Translations under genes and position numbers: made by a program | Origin: Candidatus Bathyarchaeia archaeon | GTDB lineage: Archaea > Thermoproteota > Bathyarchaeia > 40CM-2-53-6 | Direction: 5' to 3' | Assembly: GCA_035935655.1 (NCBI GenBank) | Contig: DASYWW010000018.1 | Coordinates: forward strand, 1 to 42,684 | Length of the DNA: 42,684 bases | Part shown: positions 8,573 through 30,597 of the stretch, one piece after another | How the letters are laid out: every line of letters begins with the position of its first letter | Numbering within the stretch: the first letter of the stretch is position 1 | The notes under the pieces: generated by a model | What the model saw: the letters and a program-made list of their open reading frames with translations, nothing else | Told to the model about the DNA's origin: nothing | Databases searched by the model: none

Positions 8573-9616
8573 CTAGTAAGACGTAATTTTTCGAAACCCT
8601 ATTTGAGCTGGTTCGCCTACAACTAGTTCCTCAGATGATGGAACTGGAACTTGCACTGTCCGTTCTTCAAGCAGAGATCTCCTCGATGCCTCCAAGAGCC
8701 TCACTACTCCTGCTCCGATGCTTCCATCCGACAAGTTTGAGTATGGTTTGGATGCGGTGTCGTTTTCAACACATCTGGCGAAGTGGATGATCTCTCCCTG
8801 CAGCGTGTTACTTGGAACGGTGGATATTGTCTCTGTCTTGTCTGACCTCTGAAGGACTAGTTTCTGATCCAGGCAGTCCAGTCGGGCGACTGCGTTGCTT
8901 CCTACCACGGTGACATCTCTGTGTTTCTCGGAGTCCAGCCAGCTGAGTTCAATGCTTGCGTTGACTCCGTCTATGTGTTCGGCTATGATGAAGGCAACCT
9001 CGTCGCCTGCTCCACCCCTGTAACCTCTACCTCTGCACGAGATCTTTGTGGGCCATGTTCCGAGAATATTGTTGCATATATCGAAGGGGTGTGGGCCTAA
9101 ATCGGTTATTACGTCGCGGTCTCTTTGGGGTGGGAGGTAGCCTGTCCATTGTAGGCGGAGGTAGTAGATGTCCCCAAGCAGCCCGCTCTGGACAATACGT
9201 TTTAGCTCATTGAGCCCATTGTTGAACCTATGAACATGTCCGACGGCGAGGACTCTATGCTTCTCCTCCGCGAGTCTAACTAGCTCGTTGGCGTCCGTGG
9301 ACCGTAGTGCTAGGGGTTTTTCGACGAGGACGTGCTTTTTCGATCTGAGAAACTCTGATGCGACTTCGAAGTGCGTGGTGTTTGGCGAGCAGATATGAAC
9401 AGCCGAAATAGCGGGATCGGACAGTAATCCCTGATAGCTCAAACGATAGTCCAAGGGACCGAATTCTTTCCTGCATTGCTCAAGCATAGACGGTGAGTTG
9501 TCAACAACGGAGCAGAGATTAACCCGACGAGTAGTACGGGACACGTTCAAGATTTCCCGTATTACTTTCTTCCCCCAATAACCGGCACCTACCACCGATA
9601 TGTTCAATGGCATCAT
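8573..9616 (-). CDS. Gfo/Idh/MocA family NAD(P)-dependent oxidoreductase
   Basis: From ATG 9616 the product has 347 residues. It starts with the Rossmann motif ISVVGAGYWGKK (GxGxxG), has the family signature HVLVEKPLA with the catalytic-type Lys, GHVHRFN, and the C-terminal-domain motif DLGPHPFDI, whose His is the usual catalytic partner. These enzymes oxidise or reduce sugars, inositols and related compounds, often nucleotide-sugars in archaea; the closest patterns ('GYWGKKVIREI', 'HICSPNTTH') are those of UDP-N-acetylglucosamine 3-dehydrogenase-like members, which is a suggestion only. The frame extends 25 residues upstream to 9691, but the fold begins at the chosen start. It has no neighbouring sugar genes. 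Confidence 0.85.
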   Translation of the reverse strand: MMPLNISVVGAGYWGKKVIREILNVSRTTRRVNLCSVVDNSPSMLEQCRKEFGPLDYRLSYQGLLSDPAISAVHICSPNTTHFEVASEFLRSKKHVLVEKPLALRSTDANELVRLAEEKHRVLAVGHVHRFNNGLNELKRIVQSGLLGDIYYLRLQWTGYLPPQRDRDVITDLGPHPFDICNNILGTWPTKISCRGRGYRGGAGDEVAFIIAEHIDGVNASIELSWLDSEKHRDVTVVGSNAVARLDCLDQKLVLQRSDKTETISTVPSNTLQGEIIHFARCVENDTASKPYSNLSDGSIGAGVVRLLEASRRSLLEERTVQVPVPSSEELVVGEPAQIGFRKITSY

Positions 9617-9961
9617 GTCAATGACCAATTCTCGCTCTCTCGATATAACCGGCACGTCTATGGAAGAGCACAAGCTACCACAATGTACCACAAACCAGTT
9701 GTTCCATCCCCGAATTCCTATCGCTTGACAACGCTGCGTTCGATGCCACGATCAGTTGCTGAAGCTGAGTGGATTCGGAAATGGAGATCCCGACCGCTCT
9801 TTTGGCTGTTCCCCAGAGGATTGAATCGGAGAAATCTCAGAGACGCCTTGGCTTTTCCGCGGACCGAGCCTCGCTTCGAAAAGAGAAGCGTTTTGTAATG
9901 ACGTTTCTTCCTAACGACTTGGAAGAAGAAAAAATAGGAAAATTAGGTAGGACAATCTGGC

Positions 9962-11308
9962 CTATGGGATTGGCGGTAGTACGATGCTGACGGTTACCGT
10001 CTTCGACATCGAAGCATTCTGACCTACGCCGTCCTTGACAATTATTGTTACCGTGTAGGTTCCTGGTAGAGTGTACGAGTGGCTAGTTGTAGGTCCACTG
10101 GCAGTGGAACCGTCGCCGAAGTCCCAGGCGTAGGTGTACGGCTGGATCCCGCCTGTTGCTGTGGCAGTGAACTGGACTGTCTGAAGGGGTCCCGGGTTCG
10201 CAGGTGTATACGTGAAGCTGACTGAGGGTGGGGTGTATGTGAAGAATTCTGTCATCGGAGTAGCTGTGGCATCGTTTGTGGACAGGCTGGGAAGGTTCCA
10301 GTTCGTCTCTACCGTGCGAGTGAACGAGTAGTGACTGTAAGGATTGGTTGTAACGAGGCTGTTCTTTGTTCCTCGACCAGCCCAGACAGCGTAGACGCAG
10401 TCCTCCGAGCTGTTGTTGAGGGGGCAATATCCGTTTCCTTCGTCAAAGACAACGAATAGAGCGGCTCTCTGTGTCGTGAATGTAGTGCTGTTAAGGATAT
10501 TCGGGACAAGACTGCTGAGATATGCGTCTCCGAATGGAATGGAGGCGGAACATCCGTTTGTGTAGCCGTGCATGTTATCGCAGTTGTTCGGTGTAAGCCA
10601 CATGAAGTTCGGAGCAGACCCTGAGTTGAGGTCGTTGAGCAGTGTGCAATCAGTCACCACGCAACCACTCGGATTCGCGAGTACTACTTTGGAACATCGA
10701 GTCGCGCTGGATGTGATATCGGTGAAAAACACGAAGGGGTTGTGCTCCGGAGTGTAAGGTTGGTTGTAGTTCGTGTCGCAGCCAGTTGCGACGGCTTGGT
10801 TTTCCATGTAACCTCTCCACGTTAGTCCTGCGGCCTCCAGGCTATCCACGAGGTTCACGTGAGCTGATGGCGTGCAGGGATAACCGACACAGCCATAGGT
10901 GTCCCCACCTAGCAGAGCAACGTAGTCAGCTTGGCTGAAATGTGAGACACCGGTGTAGTGGGATCCGATTCCATACGTGTTTGCCAGCCCAGCCACGTAT
11001 GGGTCTCCGCTGGTGCTTAAGCAAGGGGGTGGATTCCGTGCACAAATGTCGATTAGACCATGGTCTTCCATGACTACGATCAGAATGTGGTCGAAATAAG
11101 TGCCAGCCCCAGTTGGCGTAGATGCCGCAGTGGTTGACGTTCGGCTTATAGTTGGAGGACTTCTGTGAGCTCTGTCTTGAATCGATGAGTCCCCGACTGC
11201 GCTCGTATGATTTCCAAACTGTGACGCAACAACGACCCCTGTGAGAGCAAGAGCTATCAATGTGAAGGTTAGAGTCCGAGCCTTCTTGTTCGCGAGTACT
11301 GTTCTCAT
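9962..11308 (-). CDS. Exported phosphoesterase (phospholipase C/acid phosphatase-like) with C-terminal PKD domain
   Basis: A 448-residue protein. A signal segment (residues ~11-30, LTFTLIALALTGVVVAS) follows the basic start. The catalytic part starts YFDHILIVVMEDHG, the position where the PLC-type phosphoesterase family (pfam04185) has 'VVMEN/DH'; later come HYTGVSHFSQADYVALLGGD, FMWLTPNNCDNMHG and LFVVFDEG, the usual family order of metal-site segments. Residues ~360-445 are a PKD beta-sandwich (YAWDFGDGS, HSYTLPGTYTVTIIVKDG). Many cysteines suggest disulfides and extracellular location. It likely hydrolyses phosphate esters or phospholipids outside the cell; the substrate is unknown. The start is supported by a strong purine-rich site (AGGAGAAAAAAGGA) just before the ATG. 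Confidence 0.8.
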   Translation of the reverse strand: MRTVLANKKARTLTFTLIALALTGVVVASQFGNHTSAVGDSSIQDRAHRSPPTISRTSTTAASTPTGAGTYFDHILIVVMEDHGLIDICARNPPPCLSTSGDPYVAGLANTYGIGSHYTGVSHFSQADYVALLGGDTYGCVGYPCTPSAHVNLVDSLEAAGLTWRGYMENQAVATGCDTNYNQPYTPEHNPFVFFTDITSSATRCSKVVLANPSGCVVTDCTLLNDLNSGSAPNFMWLTPNNCDNMHGYTNGCSASIPFGDAYLSSLVPNILNSTTFTTQRAALFVVFDEGNGYCPLNNSSEDCVYAVWAGRGTKNSLVTTNPYSHYSFTRTVETNWNLPSLSTNDATATPMTEFFTYTPPSVSFTYTPANPGPLQTVQFTATATGGIQPYTYAWDFGDGSTASGPTTSHSYTLPGTYTVTIIVKDGVGQNASMSKTVTVSIVLPPIP

Positions 11309-11533
11309 TCCTTTTTTCTCCTATTCATACCAGTTTCTCAACAGAGATATTTGAACGGTCAGTCCACAGAGTCTTAGAACTAACCACAATAGAACACTTT
11401 AGCCCACCCTTGGTAAGCGCGATAGATCGTGACAGCAACAGATTGATTCATCAATCCCCATTCTTACTCTGCCAGACCAGATACTCTTGGCGTATGCCAA
11501 TTGCAGGCAAGTTGCGAGCGCGCCAACCTTGGA

Positions 11534-11638
11534 TTACTTTCCCAAATAATAGGCACCGACAAGAATTATTACAAAGAAAACAGTGAGTGTCGCATAACCG
11601 ACATACTTTGCAAAAGCTTTCCCGAAGGCGCGCTCCAT
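11534..11638 (-). CDS. 34-residue single-span membrane micro-protein, copy 2
   Basis: An ATG at 11638, preceded by GAGGAGACAA (a good Shine-Dalgarno at the right spacing), opens a 34-codon frame: a basic start (MERAFGKAFAKYVGY), a hydrophobic helix (LTVFFVIILVGAYY) and LGK, then TAA. The last seven residues and the FA-basic-Y-x-GY segment are shared with copy 1 at 1063-1146. Two copies with conserved protein sequence, conserved stop and a conserved upstream element argue that this is a real gene despite its size. The predicted product is a one-helix membrane peptide. Function unknown. Confidence 0.7.
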   Translation of the reverse strand: MERAFGKAFAKYVGYATLTVFFVIILVGAYYLGK

Positions 11639-11676
11639 TTGTCTCCTCAACTCAGAAGTGGCCCATCTGATTGGAA

Positions 11677-11713
11677 CGTCTACACATGGACAGAAATTGA
11701 GGGATTCTGTAAC
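11677..11713 (-). promoter_or_regulatory. Conserved element upstream of micro-protein copy 2
   Basis: It starts 39 bp upstream of the micro-protein ATG and matches 1215-1250 at roughly 27 of 37 positions by eye, with the blocks CGTCTACA, ATGGAC, AATTG and TGTAA in order. It is non-coding in all plausible frames. Confidence 0.45.
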
Positions 11714-11752
11714 ATGCCTTTAGCGAGTCAACCTACAGGCCTTGCTCCCAGA

Positions 11753-12004
11753 TCAAGGTCTGAGCCGGTTCACAGGTGCTTGCAGCATTGCATCACGCTG
11801 GCCAGGATATATGGACTGGTGCATCAAGTGGGGTGCGATTTCCCTTGACGGCATCGACGGTCGGTCCAACTCGAGATTCTCTCTTACCCATTCAGGTACA
11901 ATGACCGCTCGAAGGAGTTGCTGCACTGTGACGTCCCTTCTCTTGGCTTCAGACTCGAGTATCTTGAACGTGCCATCTCCCACCGATAGTATGAATTTGG
12001 CCAA
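11753..12004 (-). CDS. Short ribbon-helix-helix-like protein (last gene of small-protein operon)
   Basis: An 83-residue product from TTG 12004, with GGAG about 10 bases upstream. The first 44 residues read as one strand (KFILSVGDGTF) and two helices (ILESEAKRRDVTVQQLLRAV, then PEWVREN), the arrangement of an RHH DNA-binding fold. About 20 of 43 residues match the separate 60-residue protein at 12892, including DG-F--LE--A-RR, Q-L-RAV and P-W. The remaining ~38 residues look unstructured. It starts 2 bp after the stop of the preceding gene and so is the fourth member of an operon (12665 to 11753). DNA binding is inferred from the fold guess only. Confidence 0.65.
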   Translation of the reverse strand: MAKFILSVGDGTFKILESEAKRRDVTVQQLLRAVIVPEWVRENLELDRPSMPSREIAPHLMHQSIYPGQRDAMLQAPVNRLRP

Positions 12005-12006
12005 CG

Positions 12007-12261
12007 TTATTCTCCGGACGTTTCTCCAGCGATATTGGCGCTTGCCTCTTTCACCTTAGATTCAGGGTTGAATTGTCGAGGGGTTCTGCCGTCAACCGTG
12101 ACGATGATGTGGTAGTCTATGCCTACGCCTCGAAGCGACTGGACGAAACCGTCGAACTCGTCCAGTATCTCGTCCTCTCCTCGGGCCCATGTCTGTCCCT
12201 TCAGTTTCATGTAAGCCGTCCACCTGTAGTTCTCTTGGATTCTGTCTCTCAACTCGCTCAT
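12007..12261 (-). CDS. Hypothetical 84-residue protein (third gene of small-protein operon)
   Basis: An 84-residue, soluble, charged protein starting at ATG 12261, only 3 bp after the stop of the Cys-rich gene and followed after 2 bp by the RHH-like gene. The middle is DEILDEFDGFVQSLRGVG followed by a strand (DYHIIVTVDG). A helix-then-strand-then-DG layout is also seen in the first gene of the operon (LVDLIDSS...LEVRVWLDG), so the two may share a fold, but the similarity is weak. No family recognised. The tight spacing strongly suggests co-translation. Confidence 0.6.
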   Translation of the reverse strand: MSELRDRIQENYRWTAYMKLKGQTWARGEDEILDEFDGFVQSLRGVGIDYHIIVTVDGRTPRQFNPESKVKEASANIAGETSGE

Positions 12262-12264
12262 CGA

Positions 12265-12414
12265 TCATCCCGCCATTGTGTCAGTCGGCTCAATGTCGAT
12301 TGAGCAAGCGCAGCAGTGTTCGAGACACAGTCTGCAATTATCACATGTTAGGTTTGTGGGTTCCAGGCACGACGAGCAAAGATTCGCATCCAAGTCCTGA
12401 TCGAGCACCATCAT
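12265..12414 (-). CDS. 49-residue Cys-rich (zinc finger-like) protein (second gene of small-protein operon)
   Basis: An ATG at 12414 overlaps the TGA of the upstream gene (ATGA) and is preceded by a purine-rich AGAGGAACGG. The 49-residue product contains eight cysteines at residues 13, 16, 24, 27, 30, 34, 35 and 37, arranged CSSC, then CDNCRLC, then CCAC, with a His at 33. This is enough to bind one or two zinc ions (treble-clef or B-box-like spacing), or an Fe-S cluster. The ends are acidic and probably flexible. The overlap with its neighbours and the dense Cys pattern make it a convincing small gene. Function unknown. Confidence 0.65.
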   Translation of the reverse strand: MMVLDQDLDANLCSSCLEPTNLTCDNCRLCLEHCCACSIDIEPTDTMAG

Positions 12415-12665
12415 GAACCGTTCCTCTTGTCTACTCTTCCTTCGACTTTGAAGTACACATCGCGATCATTCATCCAATTTCCACGGACTTGGTCGTCACC
12501 GATGTCAGCATACACTCCGTCGAGCCAGACTCTTACCTCCAATGTCTTTGAAGAATCTATGAGGTCGACAAGTAGATCTTTTAGTCGGCCATCGGTCTCT
12601 GTTTCTCGACTTTCCAAGAAGGGAAATCCTCCCCTTTTTTCGTTGTTAGATAGCATCGCATCCAT
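12411..12665 (-). CDS. Hypothetical 84-residue protein (first gene of small-protein operon)
   Basis: An 84-residue, hydrophilic protein from ATG 12665 with a second ATG at codon 4. The core reads RLKDLLVDLIDSSKTLEVRV, then LDGVYADIGDD, and a last strand RDVYFKVEGRVD. It is soluble with no membrane helix. Its stop overlaps the next start (ATGA). A TATA-like TTAAATGG about 32-39 bp upstream makes this the promoter-proximal gene of a four-gene operon. I recognise no family. Confidence 0.6.
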   Translation of the reverse strand: MDAMLSNNEKRGGFPFLESRETETDGRLKDLLVDLIDSSKTLEVRVWLDGVYADIGDDQVRGNWMNDRDVYFKVEGRVDKRNGS

Positions 12666-12696
12666 CGTCTATCTATCGCTACATTTCGTAATTTTT

Positions 12697-12704
12697 CCAT
12701 TTAA
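12697..12704 (-). promoter_or_regulatory. TATA-like box of the small-protein operon
   Basis: On the minus strand TTAAATGG, followed by an A/T-rich GAAAAATTA, lies 32-39 bp upstream of the ATG at 12665 in a long intergenic region. It is the best promoter candidate for the operon 12665-11753. Confidence 0.4.
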
Positions 12705-12891
12705 CCACGACGTTTACAAAGTAACCTATCCTAACACACTGTGGACACCTCGTTATTATCGTCGAAATCCCAGATCACACTTGCGATGTCGAAGAAGGAT
12801 CGTATCTGAACACGTTTCGAATTGAGATAACAAGTAAACAGGTCTTCGCGGGAAGCGGTAAAACATTTGTCAGAAGTTTAGGTTATGGCCT

Positions 12892-13074
12892 TTGCATAAG
12901 TTCATGGTCACCATAGAAGATGGAAGGTTCAATGAGCTTGAACGGGTAGCGAGAAGGCGGAACATATCCATTCAGGAGCTCTTTCGAGCGGTCGTCATTC
13001 CCGACTGGATTGAGCGCAACGCGGTTAAAGAATCTCCGCAGCATCGCGGGAATCAGTTAAGCTACGCCAAATAA
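12892..13074 (+). CDS. Short ribbon-helix-helix-like protein, paralog of 11753-12004
   Basis: A 60-residue product from TTG 12892. The order is one strand (KFMVTIEDGRF), helix 1 (NELERVARRRN), helix 2 (IQELFRAVVIPDWIERN) and a short tail. Nearly half of the aligned residues are identical to the last gene of the neighbouring operon, and both use TTG at the same alignment position, which supports both start choices. An RHH-type DNA-binding role is inferred. It faces away from the operon across ~226 bp and is not tightly linked to another gene. Confidence 0.6.
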   Translation: MHKFMVTIEDGRFNELERVARRRNISIQELFRAVVIPDWIERNAVKESPQHRGNQLSYAK

Positions 13075-13179
13075 GACCGACCATACTAATGCAAATTTCA
13101 GAAACGATAATCGAACTGAAAGGATCATAGCTGACAACGGTACGACCTGGCGATGTTTCCGCCTTCAAAACCGTTTTGA

Positions 13180-13368
13180 CTATTCCGCGGGTTTCTCAAG
13201 TTTGCGAACCTTGTGATCCTGCGATTTGGCCGCACTATCCTCCGGATCATCGGCTGAAAGAGTCTTTGCACTCTCATCGGAATGCATCCGAATCCACCCC
13301 TGCGTCTTACGCAGGTCCTTCTTCGACTCTATCGCCGAGCTCCGCTTATCCCCTGTAGCCTCTTCCAT
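13180..13368 (-). CDS. Possible small hydrophilic protein downstream of RHH regulator
   Basis: A 62-residue frame whose ATG (13368) overlaps the last 23 bases of the RHH regulator gene in another frame. The product is strongly charged (Lys, Glu, Asp, Ser), with no hydrophobic core, and looks disordered. Translational overlap would fit an operon, but charged composition alone is weak evidence, so this may be a chance frame. Confidence 0.3.
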   Translation of the reverse strand: MEEATGDKRSSAIESKKDLRKTQGWIRMHSDESAKTLSADDPEDSAAKSQDHKVRKLEKPAE

Positions 13369-14005
13369 TCTTAAACCCCGGAAAGCTGGGAATCAACGGA
13401 GAATCTCGTTGTCCACCGCCTACGTTCACCGCCGGACGAGTAATGGTCGCAACTACTTGACCGTCGGTCTCGCGGGTCTCGACTTTGGCCCCCATGGGTT
13501 TGAAGAGGGACCCGAGCAGTTCCGTGTAGAACGCTGAAACCCTAGGGCCTCGATCGTGTTTCAACACCACGGTATCAGTTTCTCCATCGAGGGTGTACTG
13601 GAGTCTGAAAGCGTTTCCGTAGCTACCTATCATCTCTAGGGCTTTCAATGCATTCTCTGGGTTGAACTTCTTGAACCAGAACAGGACCATCTCGGGGATA
13701 GTGTTGGTCCCCGCCTCTCTGCCGAGTTCCCTTGCCTCCTGATCAGTAAGGATGCTGAAGACTTTCTCCACCAACGATGTGGGAACCTGGATGAAGCCGA
13801 ACTTCCCGGCCTTGTCATCCCACTCTACAAGTTTCCTGAGTGCCCTGTTGGCTAGAAGGTTGAAAGAGAACTGTTCTCTTTCAGCCATCTCGACGATACC
13901 TGCTTCCACGTCCTCATCTAGTCTAAGGGTCCTGGTGACGCTTCGTGAGCTTGAAACCGGTGCTTGTTTGAGCTCGAGCGTGGTCCGCGAAGTTGCTAAG
14001 GTCAC
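13346..14005 (-). CDS. RHH-domain transcription regulator with C-terminal ligand-type domain, copy A
   Basis: A 219-residue protein. Residues ~21-60 are a ribbon-helix-helix domain (SVTRTLRLDEDVEAGIVEMA, NLLANRALRKLVEWD). Residues ~65-125 are helical (LTDQEARELG, FWFKKFNPENALKALEMIG). Residues ~130-195 hold strands and a helix with TDTVVLKHDRGPRVSAFYTE and a closing 'DGQVVATI' strand. The C-terminal region has the pattern 'VxKHxxGxxxSxFYxE...' that I associate with regulators common in Thaumarchaeota-like genomes; a sensor role is inferred. It is about 40% identical by eye to the divergent neighbour at 14269. The intervening 263 bp carries repeated TTGCAA sites that could be the operators. 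Confidence 0.75.
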   Translation of the reverse strand: MTLATSRTTLELKQAPVSSSRSVTRTLRLDEDVEAGIVEMAEREQFSFNLLANRALRKLVEWDDKAGKFGFIQVPTSLVEKVFSILTDQEARELGREAGTNTIPEMVLFWFKKFNPENALKALEMIGSYGNAFRLQYTLDGETDTVVLKHDRGPRVSAFYTELLGSLFKPMGAKVETRETDGQVVATITRPAVNVGGGQRDSPLIPSFPGFKNGRGYRG

Positions 14006-14006
14006 T

Positions 14007-14268
14007 TTTTGCTCCTCTTAGCACCAGTAAGCCATTGCAAGCACTTAAGGGGTACGTCTCTCTCCGCTTGCAACTGGCAATCCTATTGACTGTATGCAAT
14101 GCAAGGTTTTGCGTTATGTGTGCAATTAGACCGTTTGCAATCTATTGCCAGCATAAGAAGTCTATCCTTCACATGCGGTCGCAAACACACTCTCTGTGAT
14201 AGAGTAGGGCCAAGCTTATCTAAATGCCTGTACATGATTGCAGTTGCTATAGAATGTGATAGTCTGTA
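14007..14268. promoter_or_regulatory. Divergent regulatory region with clustered TTGCAA motifs
   Basis: Between the two divergent RHH genes the palindrome TTGCAA occurs at 14035-14040, 14068-14073 and 14135-14140, and TGCAA cores recur at 14095-14099, 14100-14104 and 14121-14125. GCAA/TTGC half-like pieces appear further on (around 14144 and 14178). In a random 262-bp stretch a given 6-mer is expected well under once. The palindromic, repeated, half-site-containing pattern is what RHH dimers bind, so these are candidate operators for autoregulation. Confidence 0.55.
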
Positions 14269-14961
14269 ATGACATCGATTGAAACCGCTCTAAAAACTGA
14301 AACCCGACGATCTCCCGACACAGTCACGAGAACGTTCCGTATAGACCGCGACGTCGACAAGAAAATGGAAGGACTCTCCTCAGAAGGAAGAGTCAGCATG
14401 AACCAGATGGCCAACAAGGCTCTTAGACGGTACGTAGAGTGGGAGGTAAACGCCGAAAAATTCGGAACAGTCACAACCTCAATCAGTACCATTAAGAAAT
14501 TCTTCGACTATCTGACCATCGAACAGGCAAAGGAGATGGGAAGCTGGTGGGGCGAGAACCAGGCACCTGGAATCATAACCTTCTGGTTCAAAAAATTCGA
14601 CTTCGACAGTGTTCTGAAAGCGCTAGAATTCCTCGGCGCCCAATACGGCCGAGCCTTCACCTCAGACTACGCATTCGACGGAAGGAGCCACACACTTATC
14701 GTCAAACACGATATGGGATTGAAGGCCAGCATCTTCTATGCTGAAGCTGTCAAGGCTGCATTCTCACACTTAGGATTAGGAACCGACATTTTCGTGACAG
14801 ACGACCAAGTCATAGCAATAAGCCCACCCGATCCCTCTCATCCCCTGAACAGGTCCTACGAGGGAGCCGCCGACCTGAAATACCCAACAAGCGCAACAAG
14901 CCGGCCAGTTCCAAAGCTTCGCAAAGGACAAAGGGCGGACCACGAAAGCCGCGATACGTAG
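14269..14961 (+). CDS. RHH-domain transcription regulator with C-terminal ligand-type domain, copy B
   Basis: A 230-residue protein with the same architecture as the divergent copy A: RHH domain at residues ~18-56 (TVTRTFRIDRDVDKKMEGL, NQMANKALRRYVEWE), a helical middle (LTIEQAKEMG, ITFWFKKFDFDSVLKALEFL), and the C-terminal domain with TLIVKHDMGLKASIFYAEAV and TDDQVIAIS. A basic, Pro/Ser-rich tail of ~40 residues is unique to this copy. Paralogy and divergent orientation suggest tandem inversion-type duplication or an element-borne pair. It is probably a DNA-binding regulator; the ligand is unknown. Confidence 0.75.
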   Translation: MTSIETALKTETRRSPDTVTRTFRIDRDVDKKMEGLSSEGRVSMNQMANKALRRYVEWEVNAEKFGTVTTSISTIKKFFDYLTIEQAKEMGSWWGENQAPGIITFWFKKFDFDSVLKALEFLGAQYGRAFTSDYAFDGRSHTLIVKHDMGLKASIFYAEAVKAAFSHLGLGTDIFVTDDQVIAISPPDPSHPLNRSYEGAADLKYPTSATSRPVPKLRKGQRADHESRDT

Positions 14962-14999
14962 GAAAATAGACCCCAACAAAGACCCGGAACATCCTTCAA

Positions 15000-15145
15000 T
15001 CTCAGTTCAAGCCCCGGACATCGACTCTTTCGGCCAGAGCAACTAGGAGATCATAAACCCGATCATCGATAAGCTTCACTATGCCCTGCATTAGCACTGC
15101 GGCATCCTCGAGAACTCGTGATGCTCTCACCAGCAGGAAACCAGA
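15000..15145 (+). pseudogene. Decayed fragment of a terpenoid-cyclase-like (toroid) gene
   Basis: Translating this stretch by frame gives pieces matching residues ~205-250 of the toroid protein at 7149: HRLFRPEQLG (versus HHLFRSDHTG), then, after a frameshift, EIINPIIDKLHYALH, a TAG, HCGILEN, a TGA, and, after another frame change, MLSPAGN (versus ILSRAGK). At DNA level several blocks (GAGATCAT, CTTCACTAT, CACTGCGGCAT, GATGCTCTCA) align colinearly. Two in-frame stops and at least two frameshifts show it is not functional. It is a relic of a second copy, next to copy B of the RHH regulator. The left boundary is approximate. Confidence 0.7.
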
Positions 15146-15171
15146 CGAACAGTGAACGAGAAAGGTGTATT

Positions 15172-15393
15172 CTAAGGAGGCGAAGAGCGAATAAAAGGTT
15201 CAATATATCTGGGTTTTACCTTTAGTCCACAAAGCCCGGGACACTTGACGAATGGATCTAAAGATAGTTCTGGGGTATTTTCAATTCTACTGAACATGCC
15301 CTCTATCTTATGCTTTCGAATGAGCTCAGTAAGGTCTGTCCCGTCATTAGGGCACTCCCATTTCTGACTCGTGATCTGTACTTCCGCTGACAT
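15172..15393 (-). CDS. Hypothetical small protein with Cys pairs
   Basis: A 73-residue product from ATG 15393, with a clear GGAGA ribosome-binding sequence about 6 bases upstream. It contains WECPNDGTDL near the N-terminus and KCPGLCGLKV near residue 55, a possible zinc-binding set of three cysteines (plus a His), and a charged helical centre (ELIRKHKIEGMFSRIE). No membrane helix. I recognise no family. Confidence 0.55.
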   Translation of the reverse strand: MSAEVQITSQKWECPNDGTDLTELIRKHKIEGMFSRIENTPELSLDPFVKCPGLCGLKVKPRYIEPFIRSSPP

Positions 15394-15484
15394 GCGTCTC
15401 CTACTATCTTTCCAAGGATTTTTTGATTAGTCGTAGTGAGCAGCGAATGTAATCCCAAACACGGTCCTCAATCCCGAGGACCTG

Positions 15485-16117
15485 TTAGAGCATTTTTGCG
15501 ACGCTTTGGAAGTACCGTATTCCTCTTTTGCCGTTGAGGGCATGGTCTAGTGCTTGGTCGACGGCGTCTTTGGGTGTTGGGGCGGCCATGACTTTCACCG
15601 TTTTTCGATCGTCTAGGTAGCTGTCGGCGATCTTGTCCGCTGTTCCCCCTGTCCCTTTCAACGCCACTATCGGTTTTCCTTTCCCGTAGGCGACTAGTGC
15701 TTCCACATAGGTTCCAGCTCCTCCGCCTACCACAATAGCGGAGTCAGCAGAGTATGCTGTCACGTAGTTCCGTGAGAATCCCATTCCTGTTGGTACGATT
15801 ATATCGCAATAGGGGTTCGCGTAGCTCATGTCTTCTTGTGGAAGGATCCCGACCACCATTCCACCCTTCTCCTTCGCGCCACGACAAGCAGCTTCCATGA
15901 CTCCACCAAGACCGCCCGTGACAAGAACTGCTCCTCTAGAGGCAATCTCAGCTCCAACCTCTTTTGCAGCCGCGTAAGTGCTCTCAGGACAATGATCACC
16001 ATCAGATCCAATCACCAAAATCTGTATGAGACGTTTGAAGCTGGACAGTGGGGTTCTCGATGCTACTCCTCTAAACAATTCATCATCACTCTTTGAAAGG
16101 AAGGGATGCGACAACAA
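15485..16117 (-). CDS. LOG/TIGR00725-like nucleotide-binding Rossmann protein
   Basis: A 210-residue protein (TTG start at 16117; the fold begins near residue 30 with IQILVIGSDG). Motifs: GAVLVTGGLGGVMEAACRGA, GMVVGILP and AIVVGGGAGTYVEALVAYGKGKPIVAL. This last segment corresponds to the 'PGGxGTxxE' motif of lysine-decarboxylase-like/LOG proteins, here with VGGGAGTYVE, the variant seen in the TIGR00725 subfamily. Known LOG relatives release cytokinin bases from nucleotides; the archaeal subfamily's substrate is unknown. It is divergent from atpA with a ~115-bp gap. Confidence 0.8.
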   Translation of the reverse strand: MLSHPFLSKSDDELFRGVASRTPLSSFKRLIQILVIGSDGDHCPESTYAAAKEVGAEIASRGAVLVTGGLGGVMEAACRGAKEKGGMVVGILPQEDMSYANPYCDIIVPTGMGFSRNYVTAYSADSAIVVGGGAGTYVEALVAYGKGKPIVALKGTGGTADKIADSYLDDRKTVKVMAAPTPKDAVDQALDHALNGKRGIRYFQSVAKML

Positions 16118-16231
16118 GCGTCCAACCTCGCAGTTGGTTATGAGGTTGGCGTAACCGTTGGTGTAACGAGGAAGGTTTTAATGACAACCGGCCAGAAACT
16201 CGACCCTCCATCACTTACAAGGTCACATTTC

Positions 16232-19200
16232 ATGCCTGACTTCAAGCCTGGAAAGGTCGCACGGGTCGCAGGCCCCGTCATCGTCGCCGAAGGAATGCTC
16301 GGCGCCCAAATGTACGAAGTCGTCCGTGTCGGCGACCAAGGGCTCATCGGCGAGATTATCAAGATAGACGGCGAAAACGCGACAGTCCAAGTCTACGAGG
16401 AAACCGCCGGCCTCCGACCTGGCGAAAAAGTCGAGAGAACTGGCAAACCACTTTCAGTAGAACTCGGCCCCGGAATCTTGGGCCAGATCTACGACGGCAT
16501 TCAACGGCCCCTAACAGTTCTCTTCGAAAAGACCGGACCCTTCATCAAGAGAGGACTAGCCCCCGCCGCCATCGATCGATCCAAGAAATGGCATTTCGTT
16601 CCCACCGCAGATAGGGGAGTGGAAGTTTCCGGCGGTGATGTTCTCGGGACAGTCAAAGAGACCACTCTGATTACGCAACGGATAATGGTCCCTCCCAACC
16701 AGTCCGGAAAAATCACTTCAATCGTTCCTGAGGGCGACTACACTATCACCGAGCCTATCGGTGAGATGGAAACCAAGACCGGACCCATCTCATTGTTCAT
16801 GATGCACACCTGGCCCGTACGAATCGCCAGGCCCTTCAAACGCAAACTCCCAAGCGAAATCCCACTCATCACCGGCCAACGAATCATCGACTTCTTCTTC
16901 CCCGTCGCAAAAGGAGGAACAGCCGCCGTCCCCGGACCCTTCGGAAGCGGCAAGTGCCTCGACGGAGAAACTCCTGTTCTGCTTGCGGATGGCAGGATAA
17001 GAAGAATTCGAGAACTTGTACATGATAAGGGAAACTCCCGGGCCATCGATGACAATGGAGATGAGACTCTCTATTCCTACTCTAACCCTCCCAGAGTTGT
17101 ATCGCTCTCCAATCCCGAGTTCACAAACGCCGAGGCCTCAATGGGCTACAAAGGATCTAGCAATGAGCTTCTCGAAATTGAGACCCGAAGTGGGCGTAGG
17201 GTCAGAGTCACTCCCGTTCACAAGCTTCAGCAGCTGCGCCGCGACGGCACAATAGAGGAAACGTCTGCCAAACTGCTCCAACCCGGTGCGTACCTTCTAA
17301 CACCGAGAAAGATCGCGCTCAATCTAGACCTGAAATCCATCGACCCCTACAAACTCCTACCCGACGACATCAGAGTCGACGATCCCAAAGCCATCGAAAC
17401 GATGATCGCAACAATAGAGAGCCTGAAGGTGGACATTACTCTCAAGGTCCTTGCGAGGAACCTAGTTGTGAGCTACAAGAGTCTCCTGAACTATTGGAGT
17501 AGGAAAGCGAGGCCTACACTCGGCTTTCTGAGGCGCCTCGCGCAGGTCACAGGCAAGAGGATTCCTGTTGCGTCGGTCAGAGCTCAACGACAGGGCTGGA
17601 GCATAATACTCCCGAAGGAAATGACGCTTGAACTGGCAGAGTTTCTCGGGCTAATCCTCTCCGATGGCATGCTCCGGGGACGCGGAAGCGTTATCCTGTT
17701 CAATAACGACGAGCGGGTACTCCGCAGATTCTCTCAGCTCGCAAACAGACTGTTCGGTTTGACACCTCATCGCGGGACACACAGTGGAGGACTGTTGGAG
17801 AGAATCGACAGCAGAGCACTGGTCCATCTTCTTGTTGGCGTCGGTTTTCCCAAGAAGAGGAAATCTCGCACGCTGAAAGTTCCAGACCTTGTCTCAATGT
17901 CCCCGGACAAAGTGATCGGGGGATTCTTCGCAGGCTACGTCGCTGGCGACGGATCATTCAGCAACCGCACTCTAGAGATCACAACTGCAAGCGAAGAGAT
18001 GGCGTTAGGACTCTCCTATCTGCTGGCACGGTTGGGAGTCCTCCATAGAACCAGGCACAGAGAGATTGGCGGACACATTTACCATCGCATGGCAATTGAA
18101 GGGCGCCGGGCGATCTCGGAATTTTACGAATTTCTGCCGAAACAACTCCCGTATCCTTACATCAAGAAGGTAGATCGTTTTCTGAAACTTGAGAAGCGAG
18201 TGCACAGCGCTGTAGACGTTGTTCCCATCGATTCATCGGTCCTCTCTGAAGCCGCGGCCCTTGGTAAGACCTCGAGAAAGAGCTTGCGAAAATCCGGTTT
18301 CAACATGTACAATTACACAACACATGGAGAGAAACCGGGCATTACGGTTATCAGACGTCTCATATCCGCAATCAAAGACAAGTCCCCCCCGGGCTCGAAC
18401 GACAATACAGCGCTGAAGAAGTTGGAGAAACTCTCCGAGCTGTCCAACTTCTCTTTCTTCGACGAGATCTCCAACATTCGACAAATCACGACCACTTCTG
18501 AAGTCTACGATATCACGGTCCCAGGTTACGAGAATTTCATCGCTGGATGGGGACCCATGGTCTGTCACAATACGGTGCTTCAGCAGGCATTGGCAAAATT
18601 CGCAGACGCCCAGGTCATTGTCTACGTCGGCTGTGGAGAACGAGGGAACGAGATGGCTGAAGTTCTCGAAACATTTCCAACCCTCCTTGACCCGCGCACA
18701 CAACAGCCCCTGATGAACCGGACGACTCTAGTCGCGAACACCTCCAACATGCCAATCGCTGCCAGAGAAGCAAGCGTCTACACCGGCATCACAATCGCCG
18801 AGTATTTCCGAGATATGGGCTACGACACGGCGCTAATGGCGGATTCCACGAGCAGATGGGCAGAAGCTCTCAGAGAAATCTCAGGACGTCTAGAAGAGAT
18901 GCCGGGCGAAGAAGGATACCCAGCCTACCTCGCATCACGCCTTGCGGATTTCTACGAGCGATCCGGACGACTGGAAGTCTTGGGCTCGGAATCCAAAGTA
19001 GGCTCCATTAGCGTCATCGGAGCGGTCTCCCCTCCAGGGGGCGACTTTTCCGAACCGATCACTCAGAACACTCTTCGTATCGTCAAGGTCTTCTGGGCCC
19101 TCGACTCCGAACTTGCCAAGCGACGCCACTTCCCCGCCATAAACTGGCTGACAAGCTACTCTCTCTACCTCGACACCCTCGAAACATGGTATCCGAAAGA

Positions 19201-19633
19201 AGTCGGACCCGAATGGGTCGACCTCAGAAAAGTAGCCATGTATCTTCTCCAGCGCGACGAGGAGCTACGTGAGATAGTCATGCTTGTCGGTCCCGACGCC
19301 CTCTCCGAGGGGCAACGGGTCATTCTGGAAGCTGCCAAGATGATCAAGGAGGACTTCCTCATGCAGCAATCCTACAACCCCGCCGACAGCTACTGCGACA
19401 AGACCAAAACCTACAACATGATTCGGTTGATCTTACACTACTACAACTTGATGCAGAAGGCAGTCGACGAAAACATACCGCTCCAGAAAGTTCTCGAGCT
19501 GCCAGTCAAGAACGACATCAGTCGGATGAGACTCACCCCGGCAGACAAATTCACCGACTACGCACAATCCCTGAACGAGCGTCTCGATCAGGAATTCAAG
19601 ATGCTGACAACACCCGCTGTCAAGGCGAAATAA
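16232..19633 (+). CDS. atpA: A-type ATP synthase catalytic subunit A, with intein
   Basis: From ATG 16232 the precursor has 1133 residues; removing a 539-residue intein (16955-18571) leaves ~594, the normal size. The host part has the N-terminal barrel start GKVARVAGPVIVAEGM, the Walker A loop GPFGSGK-T (split by the intein), [35 protein letters not shown] and the C-terminal helical domain. The subunit hydrolyses or makes ATP in the A1 head. ATG 16181 is an alternative start with a purine-rich sequence before it, but family N-termini match 16232; a TATA-like TTTTAA at 16175-16180 fits that. atpB follows after 3 bp and atpD overlaps atpB, giving an A-B-D operon. Confidence 0.95.
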   Translation: MPDFKPGKVARVAGPVIVAEGMLGAQMYEVVRVGDQGLIGEIIKIDGENATVQVYEETAGLRPGEKVERTGKPLSVELGPGILGQIYDGIQRPLTVLFEKTGPFIKRGLAPAAIDRSKKWHFVPTADRGVEVSGGDVLGTVKETTLITQRIMVPPNQSGKITSIVPEGDYTITEPIGEMETKTGPISLFMMHTWPVRIARPFKRKLPSEIPLITGQRIIDFFFPVAKGGTAAVPGPFGSGKCLDGETPVLLADGRIRRIRELVHDKGNSRAIDDNGDETLYSYSNPPRVVSLSNPEFTNAEASMGYKGSSNELLEIETRSGRRVRVTPVHKLQQLRRDGTIEETSAKLLQPGAYLLTPRKIALNLDLKSIDPYKLLPDDIRVDDPKAIETMIATIESLKVDITLKVLARNLVVSYKSLLNYWSRKARPTLGFLRRLAQVTGKRIPVASVRAQRQGWSIILPKEMTLELAEFLGLILSDGMLRGRGSVILFNNDERVLRRFSQLANRLFGLTPHRGTHSGGLLERIDSRALVHLLVGVGFPKKRKSRTLKVPDLVSMSPDKVIGGFFAGYVAGDGSFSNRTLEITTASEEMALGLSYLLARLGVLHRTRHREIGGHIYHRMAIEGRRAISEFYEFLPKQLPYPYIKKVDRFLKLEKRVHSAVDVVPIDSSVLSEAAALGKTSRKSLRKSGFNMYNYTTHGEKPGITVIRRLISAIKDKSPPGSNDNTALKKLEKLSELSNFSFFDEISNIRQITTTSEVYDITVPGYENFIAGWGPMVCHNTVLQQALAKFADAQVIVYVGCGERGNEMAEVLETFPTLLDPRTQQPLMNRTTLVANTSNMPIAAREASVYTGITIAEYFRDMGYDTALMADSTSRWAEALREISGRLEEMPGEEGYPAYLASRLADFYERSGRLEVLGSESKVGSISVIGAVSPPGGDFSEPITQNTLRIVKVFWALDSELAKRRHFPAINWLTSYSLYLDTLETWYPKEVGPEWVDLRKVAMYLLQRDEELREIVMLVGPDALSEGQRVILEAAKMIKEDFLMQQSYNPADSYCDKTKTYNMIRLILHYYNLMQKAVDENIPLQKVLELPVKNDISRMRLTPADKFTDYAQSLNERLDQEFKMLTTPAVKAK
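16955..18571 (+). mobile_element. Intein in AtpA, inserted in the Walker A loop (LAGLIDADG type)
   Basis: 539 residues between GPFGSGK and TVLQQALAKF. It starts with Cys (CLDGETPVLLADG, block A), has block B TPVHKL, two LAGLIDADG-like endonuclease motifs (FLGLILSDG and FFAGYVAGDGSF, both with acidic residues kept), and ends EVYDITVPGYENFIAGWG...CHN with penultimate His and last Asn; the +1 residue is Thr. All residues needed for protein splicing are therefore present. The site, between Lys and Thr of the P loop, is the one used by archaeal VMA inteins (Thermoplasma, Pyrococcus), different from the yeast VMA site. It is expected to splice and may still home. Confidence 0.95.
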
Positions 19634-19636
19634 CAC

Positions 19637-22165
19637 ATGGTCTCACTCACCGGCCTCGAATACAAAACCGTCCGAGAAATATCAGGACCCCTAATCTTCG
19701 TCGAATCAGTCCGAGGGGTAGGATACGGCGAGCTAGCGAAGATCAGGACCCCGAGTGGCGAGGAGAGAAGGGGCCAAGTCCTAGAAATCGGCGGTGGAGT
19801 CGCGGTTGTTCAGGTCTTCGAGGGAACCAGCGGACTCGACATAGCATCAACCAGCATCCGGTTCACAGGGGAAACAGTCAAGCTTCCAGTCTCCCAGGAC
19901 ATGCTCGGGCGAATCTTCGATGGAAGCGGCCGACCAACTGACGGCGGCCCGAGAATTATCCCTGATGATTATCTTGATGTAAACGGCAGTCCCATCAACC
20001 CCTTCGCCCGCGAATACCCCCGCGAGTTCATCCAAACAGGCGTGTCGGCCATCGACGGAATGAACACTCTCGTCCGGGGCCAGAAACTCCCGCTATTCTC
20101 CGCGTCCGGACTGCCCCACAACCAGATTGCAGCTCAGATCGCGCGGCAAGCCAAGGTCCGCGGAACCGATGAGCCATTCACCACAGTCTTTGCAGCCATG
20201 GGCATCACCGCCGACGAAGCCCGCTTCTTCAGAGACGACTTCGAGAAACAAGGAGCCTTCGACCATGTAACAATGTTCGTTAACCTCGCAGACGACCCCG
20301 CCATAGAACGAATTCTAACCCCAAGACTCGCCCTGACAGCAGCCGAATACTTCGCAGTCAAACTCGGAACCCATGTTCTCGTCATACTCACCGACATGAC
20401 AAACTATGCAGAAGCTCTTCGAGAAATCTCTGCAGCGCGAGAAGAGGTCCCCGGACGCCGAGGATACCCCGGCTACATGTACAGCGTCGATGGCAGCCGT
20501 AGAGTTGTTCTTCGAGACCCTGAGGGATCAGTCAGAATCGTTTCTCTCAGTGAATTCTTTCAGATGATTGAAGGTCCCATCGAAAACGATGGGGTCGTAG
20601 AAAGAAAGAACATAGATGGTTGGTACGCGCTCTCCACGACGAACGACGGTAAGAGCGGGTTCCACCCGATCAGACATATCGTTCGGCATCCCTACAAGGG
20701 TCAGCTTACCCGCATCAAGACACAACTCGGAGAAACAATCGTAACCCCTAACCACAGCGTCTTCAGTGCAAACGACGGGCAACTATCAGCCGTGGAAGCC
20801 GGACAGCTTGGAGTTGGCGACTCAATCGCACATGTTTCCAAAATCCCGGAAGACTGGGTTTCTAAGGAAACCGTAGAGATTCCAAGCGTTAAGAAACGGT
20901 TCCATCGACAGATCGCCCTGACTCCTGAACTTGCTAGATACCTCGGCTACTATGTTTCCGAAGGGCACTCCTCTCGATGGTACAATCGCAAGCACAGCAC
21001 TTGGCAACACCAGGTTCTCATTAGCAACAATTCTACCGATTTCATCAATGATGCAGCTGAATGCTACACGAGCGTCTTTGGAAGAGCCCCCCCTACGATT
21101 CACATGGGTGATAAGAGGTCCGGAACGTGGAGGGTTGGAACTCAACGCAAACACGTGTACGACTTTCTCAACGCCTCTCTAGGATGCGGTCACCGAGCTT
21201 CCCACAAACGAATACCCAGCGCCATACTATCCGCACCTAGGCCAATCCGAGGTGCGTTCTTCAAAGCATACTATGACGGAGACGGATTTTCGCAGAACGA
21301 ACGATATAAGACAAAACAATACTGCATGACCACTATTAGCCCTGGACTCCGTGACGATCTCGTCTTCTTGTGTCGTACGCTCTACCCCGACCGGTCACCC
21401 TCACTCACACCTGCAGGAGTTGGAGGAAAAGCCCACCAAGTCTACCTCTCTACTTACGTAAGAAGCCAAACGGCCTCGTTAAACGACACTGACTGCGTGA
21501 AAATCAAAGCAATAGAGCAGGTTGAATCCACAGAGGAATGGGTTTACGACATCGACGTGGAAGGATCCGACAACTTTGTAGACGCCTGCGGTCTCCTCCT
21601 CCTCCACAACACGGATCTTTCTACGATCTATGAACGGGCGGGAAGACTGCATGGGAGTAAGGGGTCAATCACCCAGATGCCGATTCTCACCATGCCCGGA
21701 GACGATGTTACCCATCCAATCCCGGATCTCACTGGCTACATCACTGAAGGCCAGATCTACATCGATCGAGGACTACACCGGAAAGGAATCTATCCACCAA
21801 TCGACCCCGCACCATCCCTGTCACGATTGATGAAGGAGGGAATCGGCAGGGGCCGCACAAGAGAAGATCATCGGGAAGTCTCAGACCAACTTTACTACGC
21901 TTATGCGGAGGGACGAAGCTTCCGTGACCTAGTCGCCGTCATCGGTGAGGAAGCGCTCTCTGCTCGAGACAAGCTCTACCTCGGGTTCGCGGAGAATTTC
22001 GAGAGGAAGTTCATCAACCAAGGACTCTACGAAAACCGAGACATCGACGCAACCCTTGATCTCGGTTGGAACCTGCTCAGCGTTCTCCCTGAAAGCGAGC
22101 TGAAACGTATCGACCCTGCTACGATCAAGAAGTATCATCCGAAATATCGCGGGAAGACAGCATAG
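19637..22165 (+). CDS. atpB: A-type ATP synthase regulatory subunit B, with intein
   Basis: The 842-residue precursor minus a 376-residue intein gives 466 residues, the usual length. Host motifs: [74 protein letters not shown], and the junction [20 protein letters not shown]. Subunit B lacks a catalytic P loop and forms the non-catalytic interfaces of the A3B3 head. The ATG at 19637 follows the atpA stop by 3 bp, and the atpD start overlaps the atpB stop by one base, so translation is probably coupled. Confidence 0.95.
20483..21610 (+). mobile_element. Intein in AtpB (LAGLIDADG type, Ser at position 1)
   Basis: 376 residues between PGYMY and [11 protein letters not shown]. The first residue is Ser ([15 protein letters not shown]), a functional but less common alternative to Cys. 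Block B is TPNHSVF; the endonuclease motifs are YLGYYVSEG and [11 protein letters not shown], with acidic residues present; the end is [15 protein letters not shown]...LLLLHN with His-Asn, and +1 is Thr. The boundary is exact, because the flanks join into the conserved '[15 protein letters not shown]' of all B subunits. Splicing competence is inferred. Confidence 0.95.
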
Positions 22166-28336: not shown

Positions 28337-28795
28337 ATGCGTGTTCGCCTTGTTGGCTATGAGCCTGACCTCGAAAGGGTCTGCGCCGCCGCAATGCGAT
28401 CATGCTACTCTCCGCACCCAGGCTACGAGCTGTTCACCCACACCTCACAAGACAAGGTTCTAGACGGGGAGAAAATCTTTGATGCAGAGAGAATTGGCGG
28501 ATTGTTGAAGCGTGCCCTCGAGCTGGGACACTACGACATTCTCGAGCACAACAGCATAACGTGGCTGGCGGAGGCGGACGAGAAGGAGATCCTCTCCCTC
28601 ATGGAATCTTCCAAATTCTTTGAGACAAGCCAGATCGACGAGAAGAGATGGCTCATCACAACAAACCTGCGAGTGCTAGTCGAACTAGCCCGAAGCACAA
28701 ACCATCTCCCGTTGACGAAAGACCTAGTCGAGACTCTAAGCGAGGCCGCTCCCATAATCGCCTCAGCCCTCGCAATACCAATCACCAAGAGCTAG
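28337..28795 (+). CDS. Short ThyX-like protein lacking the RHRX7S signature
   Basis: 152 residues from ATG 28337, with GGAAGGA about 10 bases upstream. It reads as a ThyX: a start RVRLVGYEPDLERVCAAAMR-CYSP, ELGHYDILEHNSITW (compare 'GH-SVLEH-SFTF'), and RWLITTNLRVLVELARS (compare the 'NLRE-HFF' part). The middle with RHR and the catalytic Ser region is missing, so it cannot be a standard thymidylate synthase by itself. It lies 5 bp before the canonical thyX. It may be a decayed or regulatory paralog or a partner subunit. Confidence 0.65.
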   Translation: MRVRLVGYEPDLERVCAAAMRSCYSPHPGYELFTHTSQDKVLDGEKIFDAERIGGLLKRALELGHYDILEHNSITWLAEADEKEILSLMESSKFFETSQIDEKRWLITTNLRVLVELARSTNHLPLTKDLVETLSEAAPIIASALAIPITKS

Positions 28796-28800
28796 ATTGG

Positions 28801-30597
28801 ATGCCAAGCAAAGCAATCCTGTTCAGCTACACCAACTATCCCGAACTCAACGCGAACTTGGAGGAGGCGGGAGTGAAGATGAGCAAGGACAGCATGCTTC
28901 GTCACGGAAGCTTCACGTTCGACCTTCAAGGGATTAGCAGAGCCGCAAGCCACCAGATCGTCAGACACCGAATCGCATCCTTCTCACAACAGTGCTACGA
29001 CCCCGAAACGGAGATACTTACGGCAGTCGGTTGGAAACACCATCATGAACTGAGCCTTGACCTTGCGGTAGCTACACTCAACCCGAAAACGTTCGAGATC
29101 GAGTACCATCTTCCCACATCGTTGTTTTTCTATTCTTACGAAGGCCCTATGGATCATTTTCAGGCGAAACAAGTCGACTTGTGTGTAACGCCTAATCACA
29201 GACTATTTGTAAAAATCTATGGACGCACCCGTTGGGAACTCCTCGAAGCCTCGACGGTCTCCCGGATTCCTCACGGGCAAATTGAGTTCAAGAAGGACGG
29301 AGTGTGGCACGGGGGAGAGGACGAGTCGGACCTAACCATTCCTGGTGCGACAATTGCGAAGCAATTTGCTTCAGGACAGTCAACCTACCTACGACAGGAC
29401 ATCACGATTGATTATCAGAATTTTCTAGAGTTTCTAGGCTACTTCATATCAGAAGGATGCGTTTGTGAGTCGCCTCAACGAAGCTGGACGAGGCATATTA
29501 TCGAGATTGCTCAAAAGACCGGTAGCACATCGGAGAACATCGAGTCCTGTATCAAGCGTCTACCCTTCAGTGCTTATCGGTCGATCGACAAATATGGCTG
29601 CATGAGATGGCGTATCGAGGACAAGTCACTTCTAGAGTTCCTTAAGCCCCTTGGCAAAGCACACCAAAAGTTCATTCCCCGCTGGGCATTGAACCGAAAC
29701 CCAAGAGACCTTCGTCTATTATTCAAAGCGCTCATCGAGGGAGATGGCTCAGTCGACCAGAAGAGCGGATGGACAAGATACTATACTACCTCAATGCGCT
29801 TGGCAGACGATGTTCAAGAATTAGCCTTCAAGCTTGGACATGCCGCGAATATTTCCTACGTAGGCCCCAGACGACGGAATCGGTTGGGGTTCTACATAGT
29901 CAGCATTATTCAAAATAGAACCACCCCGTTGATCCGCCTTAATGGTACAACTTCAAGCCACCATGAGGTTATCCAGTACCGTGGAATAGTATGGTGTATT
30001 GAGGTACCGAACCACATCATTTACGTCAGAAGGAAGGGAAAACCTGTATGGTGTGGAAACAGTCAGCGGTACGTGAAAGTCACACGTAGCTACGGCTTCT
30101 TAAAACCGCCCGGAGTTCCAGAAGACCTCAAGGTACCGGTTCAGATTCACGGACACGTGCTGGAACTGAACTTTACGGATGTTATGGATTTGACACGTCA
30201 AGCCGAAGAAGGATTTGTCGCCAAAGGCATCAAAGCAGAGGACAGTCGTTATCTCCGGCCGAACGCGGCGACCACGAACATCGTCATGAGCATGAGCCCA
30301 CGCCAACTCATCCACTTCTTCAACCTCCGCTGCGCCCCCGACGCTCAGTGGGAGATCCGCGACCTTGCTTGGTCAATGTACGCCGCAGTCCGACTTGCAT
30401 CACCCCAAGTCTTTGGCCCACTGCCCGCTGCGGATGAGAGCGATTACATCAAGAAACGAGTTGCGCTTGTTGACGACCTCGTTCGGAAGGGAGAAGATGG
30501 ATTCTCGAGAACTCCGCCTGGAGAGCTGTTCCAACTCGAGCTTCAGCCTGTTCTGGAGCTGGTCCATCCAGTCGAAACATTTGTCAGGCGATATTAG
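28801..30597 (+). CDS. thyX: FAD-dependent thymidylate synthase ThyX, with intein
   Basis: From ATG 28801 the precursor has 598 residues; minus a 356-residue intein, 242 remain, a normal ThyX length. Host motifs: LRHGSFTFDLQGISRAASHQ, the signature RHRIASFSQQ-S-QRY (RHRX7S, split by the intein), 'NAATTNIVMSMSPRQLIHFF' and RCAPDAQWEIRDLAW. ThyX methylates dUMP to dTMP with methylene-THF, NADPH and FAD. The N-terminal part before 'LRH' is shorter than usual. No thyA was seen. A frame continues upstream of 28801 but overlaps the short ThyX-like gene, so 28801 is preferred. Confidence 0.92.
   Translation: MPSKAILFSYTNYPELNANLEEAGVKMSKDSMLRHGSFTFDLQGISRAASHQIVRHRIASFSQQCYDPETEILTAVGWKHHHELSLDLAVATLNPKTFEIEYHLPTSLFFYSYEGPMDHFQAKQVDLCVTPNHRLFVKIYGRTRWELLEASTVSRIPHGQIEFKKDGVWHGGEDESDLTIPGATIAKQFASGQSTYLRQDITIDYQNFLEFLGYFISEGCVCESPQRSWTRHIIEIAQKTGSTSENIESCIKRLPFSAYRSIDKYGCMRWRIEDKSLLEFLKPLGKAHQKFIPRWALNRNPRDLRLLFKALIEGDGSVDQKSGWTRYYTTSMRLADDVQELAFKLGHAANISYVGPRRRNRLGFYIVSIIQNRTTPLIRLNGTTSSHHEVIQYRGIVWCIEVPNHIIYVRRKGKPVWCGNSQRYVKVTRSYGFLKPPGVPEDLKVPVQIHGHVLELNFTDVMDLTRQAEEGFVAKGIKAEDSRYLRPNAATTNIVMSMSPRQLIHFFNLRCAPDAQWEIRDLAWSMYAAVRLASPQVFGPLPAADESDYIKKRVALVDDLVRKGEDGFSRTPPGELFQLELQPVLELVHPVETFVRRY
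28993..30060 (+). mobile_element. Intein in ThyX, immediately before the Ser of RHRX7S (LAGLIDADG type)
   Basis: 356 residues between RHRIASFSQQ and SQRYVKV. It starts with Cys (CYDPETEILTAVGW), block B is VTPNHRLFV, the endonuclease motifs are FLGYFISEG and LFKALIEGDG, and the end is GIVWCIEVPNHIIYVRR...VWCGN. The last residue is Asn but the penultimate is Gly, not His, so Asn cyclisation must rely on other residues. The +1 residue is Ser, the catalytic motif Ser of ThyX. The exteins join seamlessly into RHRIASFSQQSQRY. Confidence 0.93.

Follow-up and report, generated by a model that had tools for sequence, protein, structure and literature searches.

A candidate autoregulated four-gene operon with an RHH family protein in soil Bathyarchaeia

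The window analyzed here, a stretch of 42,684 nucleotides from a 2.5-Mb archaeal genome assigned to Candidatus Bathyarchaeia, carries four small genes (A, B, C, and D) whose order recurs within one family of soil Bathyarchaeia. The explanation that we prefer, and to which we give about an even chance, is that they form a transcription-regulator operon that is chromosomal, specific to the lineage, and autoregulated, and that A, C, and possibly B would act as partners of D, a protein of an RHH family. It is supported by the gene order in 9 + 5 genomes, by purifying selection, by the RHH membership of the D family, by a TATA box with two further upstream elements, and by an operator-like element found mainly at two A-type operons. 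Shorter gene pairs that end with D and a divergent RHH gene, D2, whose arrangement parallels that of AvtR gp29/gp30, point the same way. Against it stand the score of the window's own D, which is below the RHH_1 cut-off, the palindrome that is missing or degenerate at some operon promoters, and the solo D paralogues that have none. The features discussed are listed in Table 1.

Table 1. Genes and sequence elements at the operon locus, with positions in the window
Feature	Position	Strand	Description
GFO/IDH/MocA sugar oxidoreductase	8573..9691	minus	downstream of D; Pfam PF01408, E 1.4e-26
Gene D	12004-11753	minus	83 aa, TTG start, RHH family protein
Gene C	12261-12007	minus	84 aa, ATG start
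Gene B	12414-12265	minus	49 aa, ATG start, 8 Cys
Gene A	12665-12411	minus	84 aa, ATG start; first gene of the operon
TATA box	12698..12704	minus	TTAAATG here, TTATATG in most orthologues; about -39 from A start
Promoter element TGTAAACG	12711..12718	minus	about -53 from A
Candidate operator TGTCCACAGTGTGTTAG	12731..12747	minus	CACA-N-TGTG palindrome at 12735-12743
D2	12892..13074	plus	60 aa, divergent RHH gene of the D family; intergenic region common with A
RHH1	13346..14005	minus	219 aa, long RHH-like; syntenic in most operon-bearing genomes; no Pfam match
RHH2	14269..14961	plus	230 aa, long RHH-like, paralogue of RHH1; syntenic

Gene layout, selection, and distribution

The four genes are tightly packed, with a 4-nt ATGA overlap between A and B, 3 bp between B and C, and 2 bp between C and D. 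A first-pass annotation of the same DNA had given these spacings, which proved exact when the ORFs were re-read; its description is correct, with only the minus strand left unsaid, and the 49-residue protein with eight cysteines that it singled out is the product of gene B. The TTG start of D aligns with ATG or TTG starts of its orthologues. In a codon analysis of close orthologues, the median pN/pS values were 0.22 for A, 0.27 for B, 0.38 for C, and 0.17 for D, each well below 1, indicating that purifying selection acts on all four genes. Chance ORFs or mis-annotation might be suspected from the shortness of the ORFs and the single TTG start, but the conservation of the genes in 14 genomes together with these low ratios led us to reject that reading, the probability of which is negligible. 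No Rfam match was found within positions 9000-16000 of the window, and a sigma-70/terminator scan, which is a bacterial model and not meaningful for an archaeon, was set aside.

The full A-B-C-D order is present in nine species, namely the organism of the window, G001, G006, G009, G012, G013, G015, G017, and, from a second genus, G018. Five more genomes (G007, G008, G010, G011, and G016) retain A-C-D and have B elsewhere. Among 100 relatives searched, A was found in 13 genomes besides its own, all of the same family; strong matches to C occur in the same set of 14 genomes, and B is slightly more widespread (16 genomes of this family). When 257 genomes of the class were searched with a profile, A was again confined to the family. 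Those relatives of A that carry a name are soil Candidatus Bathyarchaeota MAGs, one of them labeled Crenarchaeota. Both A and RHH2 are missing from G014, G004, G002, and G019, and A is missing from G005 and G020, where RHH2-like genes are present, many such MAGs being incomplete. The first-pass annotation had suggested looking for the gene order in other genomes and held that a cluster conserved nowhere would speak against its proposal; the cluster turns out to be conserved, though only within one family.

Shorter versions of the gene set also occur. The window's own genome contains a second copy, A'-D', on another contig, without B and C and followed by a 95-aa gene. C-D pairs are present in G011 and G017, and also in G008 and G016, where C is decayed and carries an in-frame TAG. 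Besides the strong matches in 14 genomes, C has paralogues in C-D pairs and as solo copies. In the modular pairs, D is always the last gene.

The four proteins

The orthologue alignment of A, which comprises the sequences from the 13 other genomes of the family and one paralogue from its own genome, shows the invariant motifs RVWLDGVY ... W(M) ... R-VYFKVEG, and C has the conserved core W-x-A-x5-G-x-T ... DY-x3-V-x-V. Searches of Pfam, PHROGs, NCBIfam, PADLOC, and PDB gave no significant match for either protein; they correspond to the two unknown soluble proteins of the first-pass annotation and indeed match no known module. Neither has recognizable relatives outside the lineage. No relationship between the two is detectable (hhalign probability 0.7%), and the idea that they are mutual paralogues was rejected. 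Known folds for the two were dropped from consideration, since the AlphaFold2 models have low confidence (pLDDT 61 and 68 for A and C, respectively) and match no PDB structure at E <= 0.001. Comparison of A, C, and D with PDB sequence profiles gave nothing significant. In G006 and G001, a glycosyltransferase gene has a solo C paralogue 47 bp upstream (L196 2457-2684, L104 4290-4517).

The eight cysteines of B are located at positions 13, 16, 24, 27, 30, 34, 35, and 37, giving the pattern C-x2-C-x7-C-x2-C-x2-C-x3-CC-x-C, and all eight are retained in every operonic copy (alignment of 15). The C terminus is conserved as DP-x-x-T-(M/L)-(A/P)-G (DPTDTMAG-type), even where C does not come next. One of the 15 members matches Pfam zf-B_box (E 0.003), and the window's B has no match to it. 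The C-x2-C-x7-C-x2-C core of B resembles that of the B-box/zinc-ribbon proteins (PF00643), but the second half of B is C-x3-CC-x-C instead of the B-box His ligands, and no His ligands stand at the places expected by the profile, so that B resembles a B-box or zinc ribbon only weakly and was not assigned to PF00643. B is presumed to bind zinc, in keeping with its earlier description as a Cys-rich zinc-type protein.

The RHH-like protein of the first-pass annotation corresponds to D. The window's D itself has no Pfam match at E <= 1. However, three of its paralogues score 23.0, 21.5, and 21.2 bits, above the 20.5-bit gathering cut-off of Pfam RHH_1 (PF01402), and they align with D across the N-terminal ~45 residues. 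Because several paralogues pass the cut-off, D is classed as an RHH protein by family, though below the RHH_1 cut-off itself. D paralogues also match Antitox_RHH/FitA-like RHH weakly, and the best PDB match of the family is a weak one (E 0.039) to the archaeal-virus RHH regulator AvtR. The C terminus of D ends in a conserved PVNRLRP-type tail (alignment of 16), and several D subfamilies (L112-L122) keep a C-terminal tail of the R-[LI]-R type. The genome of the window has 14 members of the D family, those other genomes of the taxonomic family in which it occurs have 6-17 each, and elsewhere in the class there are sporadic copies only; we met no account of such an expansion of small RHH proteins across a family of soil Bathyarchaeia in the literature searched. 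Eleven more distant paralogues from the window's own genome were examined; none is accompanied by A, B, or C, and most look solo. One paralogue in this genome, C46:47814, has a 53-aa double-CxxC zinc-ribbon-like ORF just upstream on the same strand (L115 3107-3268, 3312-3521), a second pair of small zinc-type and RHH neighbors in this genome.

The small overlapping genes with an RHH protein among them recall a toxin-antitoxin-like system, in which A and/or C would be a small toxin and D an RHH antitoxin, neutralizing the toxin by means of its C-terminal tail and acting as repressor of the operon. Pairs such as A-D and C-D resemble two-gene modules, the presence of the genes is patchy with decayed C-D copies, and the weak Antitox_RHH/FitA-like matches of the D paralogues fit as well. 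Nevertheless, PADLOC, Pfam, NCBIfam, and PHROGs yielded no significant match for any of the four proteins, no recognizable toxin being found among A, B, and C in these databases. The genes that would encode toxins lie ahead of D and are of two different kinds, with a Cys-rich protein in addition, the D paralogues of the window's own genome are mostly solo, and the chromosomal setting is stable, with no relatives in plasmid and virus collections. We therefore regard a toxin-antitoxin role as rather unlikely.

Promoter region and chromosomal setting

Three elements are conserved among 15 regions upstream of A. The TATA pattern was found in 14 of them, 13 times at the conserved place (shuffle mean 2.5), and TGTAAACG in 14 at a near-constant position (shuffle mean 0.3). 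YACANTGTGTT occurs in 12 of the 15 against a shuffle mean of 0.01, the palindrome YACANTGTG within it being located at -68 to -126. In three of the 15 promoters (G009, G013, and G018) the palindrome is absent or degenerate, and in one clade (5/15) the element is lengthened to a perfect TGTGTT-N7-AACACA inverted repeat. Since a single conserved promoter precedes A and the genes are tightly packed, the four genes are considered one transcription unit in silico; together with the recurrence of the order among species, this bears out the operon proposed in the first-pass annotation.

Across the window's own genome, TGTCCACANTGTGTTAG is present exactly before A and with one mismatch before A', and there is one site with two mismatches elsewhere. 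A wider palindrome regulon was not borne out by this distribution, which comprises two A-type promoters and the one 2-mismatch site, and the palindrome was not found upstream of the solo D paralogues. The 2-mismatch copy (C46:175560-175576, L213) lies ~35 bp upstream of a gene for a predicted 195-aa membrane protein. The palindrome lies in the 226-bp intergenic region (12666-12891) between A and D2. An intact D2 is present in the window, G017, G018, and G011, whereas several other species have a frameshifted, shortened, or decayed copy; this variation was seen at the loci L087 7159-7339, L085 4458-4565, L092, L093, and L096.

The surroundings of the operon are chromosomal genes that are linked to it in many genomes: the sugar oxidoreductase, a phosphoesterase-PKD protein, the long RHH genes, and, in several, V-ATPase. 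The neighborhood is conserved in most genomes, with local changes downstream of D, and the position of the operon is not that of a variable insertion. The product of the GFO gene matches the NCBIfam UDP-GlcNAc 3-dehydrogenase model with E 9e-47, yet falls under the cut-off of that model. The long RHH-like proteins (about 200-235 aa) constitute a second multi-copy family and have a C-terminal domain; in relatives, copies recur beside C paralogues and near V-ATPase and sugar genes. The V-ATPase A and B subunit genes and a ThyX-like gene of the window appear to be intein-bearing from their ORF translations (16106-19633, 19637-22165, and 28648-30597).

The density of the genes had earlier been likened to that of archaeal viruses or plasmids. 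Densely packed small genes, with RHH and zinc-type proteins among their products, are indeed typical of archaeal viral regulators (PMC5569661), and AvtR, to which the D family has its best PDB match, is viral. However, four profile scans of IMG/VR returned no relative, A has no match among phages and D none among plasmids, the GC content of the operon is that of its surroundings, the window contains no tRNA, and the chromosomal neighborhood is the same across many species. Because viral, phage, and plasmid relatives are lacking and the chromosomal flanks are conserved, a mobile or viral nature is not supported, and we consider it very improbable that the operon originated as an archaeal virus or plasmid cassette.

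The same neighborhood raises the possibility of an envelope or sugar-metabolism regulatory unit, with the operon controlling, or being co-expressed with, the GFO oxidoreductase and secreted surface proteins (phosphoesterase-PKD, Ig-like). In G018, A, B, C, D, and GFO follow one another on one strand, and in several genomes of the A-C-D clade B is located just upstream of GFO on the same strand. In G001 and G006, the gene directly after D encodes a secreted protein of ~445 aa; the two genes overlap by 4 nt in G001 and are 4 bp apart in G006. The solo C paralogue next to a glycosyltransferase gene fits this pattern. In G015, G017, G016, and G011, however, the gene after D encodes a 127-aa double-CxxC protein instead, and the distance between D and the phosphoesterase gene of the window is about 450 bp, so that co-transcription is not general. 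The linkage may also merely mirror conserved chromosome order. Regulation of adjacent envelope and sugar genes is plausible on the grounds of linkage; as the explanation of the operon, we regard such a unit as unlikely.

Proposed mode of action and comparison with known systems

In the autoregulated operon that we favor, D would bind the palindrome CACANTGTG as an RHH dimer and would control its own operon and the divergent D2. D2 cannot be essential to such a circuit, because it is decayed in several genomes. A and C may be protein partners that modulate D, a role inferred from gene order alone, since A-D and C-D pairs occur besides the full operon; the modulation could act through the conserved C-terminal R-L-R tail of D. 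B might be a small zinc protein, structural or redox-sensitive, that supplies an additional input, and it is likely dispensable for the module because one clade has B elsewhere. Downstream, the unit probably acts on other genes, perhaps the neighboring envelope and sugar genes. More tentatively, A, B, C, and D together might be a new kind of regulatory (or toxin-antitoxin-like) complex of several components, restricted to soil Bathyarchaeia. Two hitherto undescribed families (A and C) would each dock onto an RHH protein taken from a large set of paralogues, and the 8-Cys zinc protein would be the sensor. No description of the A-B-C-D operon was found in the literature searched. Four microproteins that would be called "hypothetical" in this uncultured archaeal lineage can now be treated as one defined and conserved module. 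It has a promoter, a candidate operator, and sub-modules that can be separated (A-D and C-D), and is amenable to simple in vitro binding tests.

Comparison of the operon with RHH type II toxin-antitoxin systems (CopG/ParD/FitA-type) shows two-gene modules ending with the RHH gene, a conserved tail beyond the RHH domain, and a palindromic promoter element as common features. In contrast to those systems, the operon has no recognized toxin and up to four genes, most D paralogues are solo, and the locus is chromosomally stable. In haloarchaea, CdrS and CdrL are RHH regulators of ftsZ2, and CdrL has a C-terminal double zinc ribbon (PMC7439475). Small single-domain archaeal proteins of the RHH_1 type that work with a zinc-ribbon-bearing regulator are the point of likeness, and this precedent for RHH and zinc-ribbon parts in archaeal regulation counts in favor of the preferred explanation, whereas in our operon the zinc-type part is the separate protein B, A and C have no counterpart, and no ftsZ2 was recognized at the locus, nor any ftsZ-like gene among the listed neighbors. 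In the AvtR gp29/gp30 arrangement, an RHH protein is reported to repress its own gene and to regulate a neighboring predicted RHH gene (PMC5569661). D is by prediction a small RHH regulator as AvtR, SvtR, and F55 are, and the locus likewise has two neighboring RHH genes whose common intergenic region contains imperfect inverted repeats. AvtR contains two tandem RHH motifs compared with one in D, it is viral whereas the operon is chromosomal, and the sequence similarity is marginal. We would not file the operon as a member of the AvtR or CdrS/CdrL systems, and would liken its working mode to that of AvtR.
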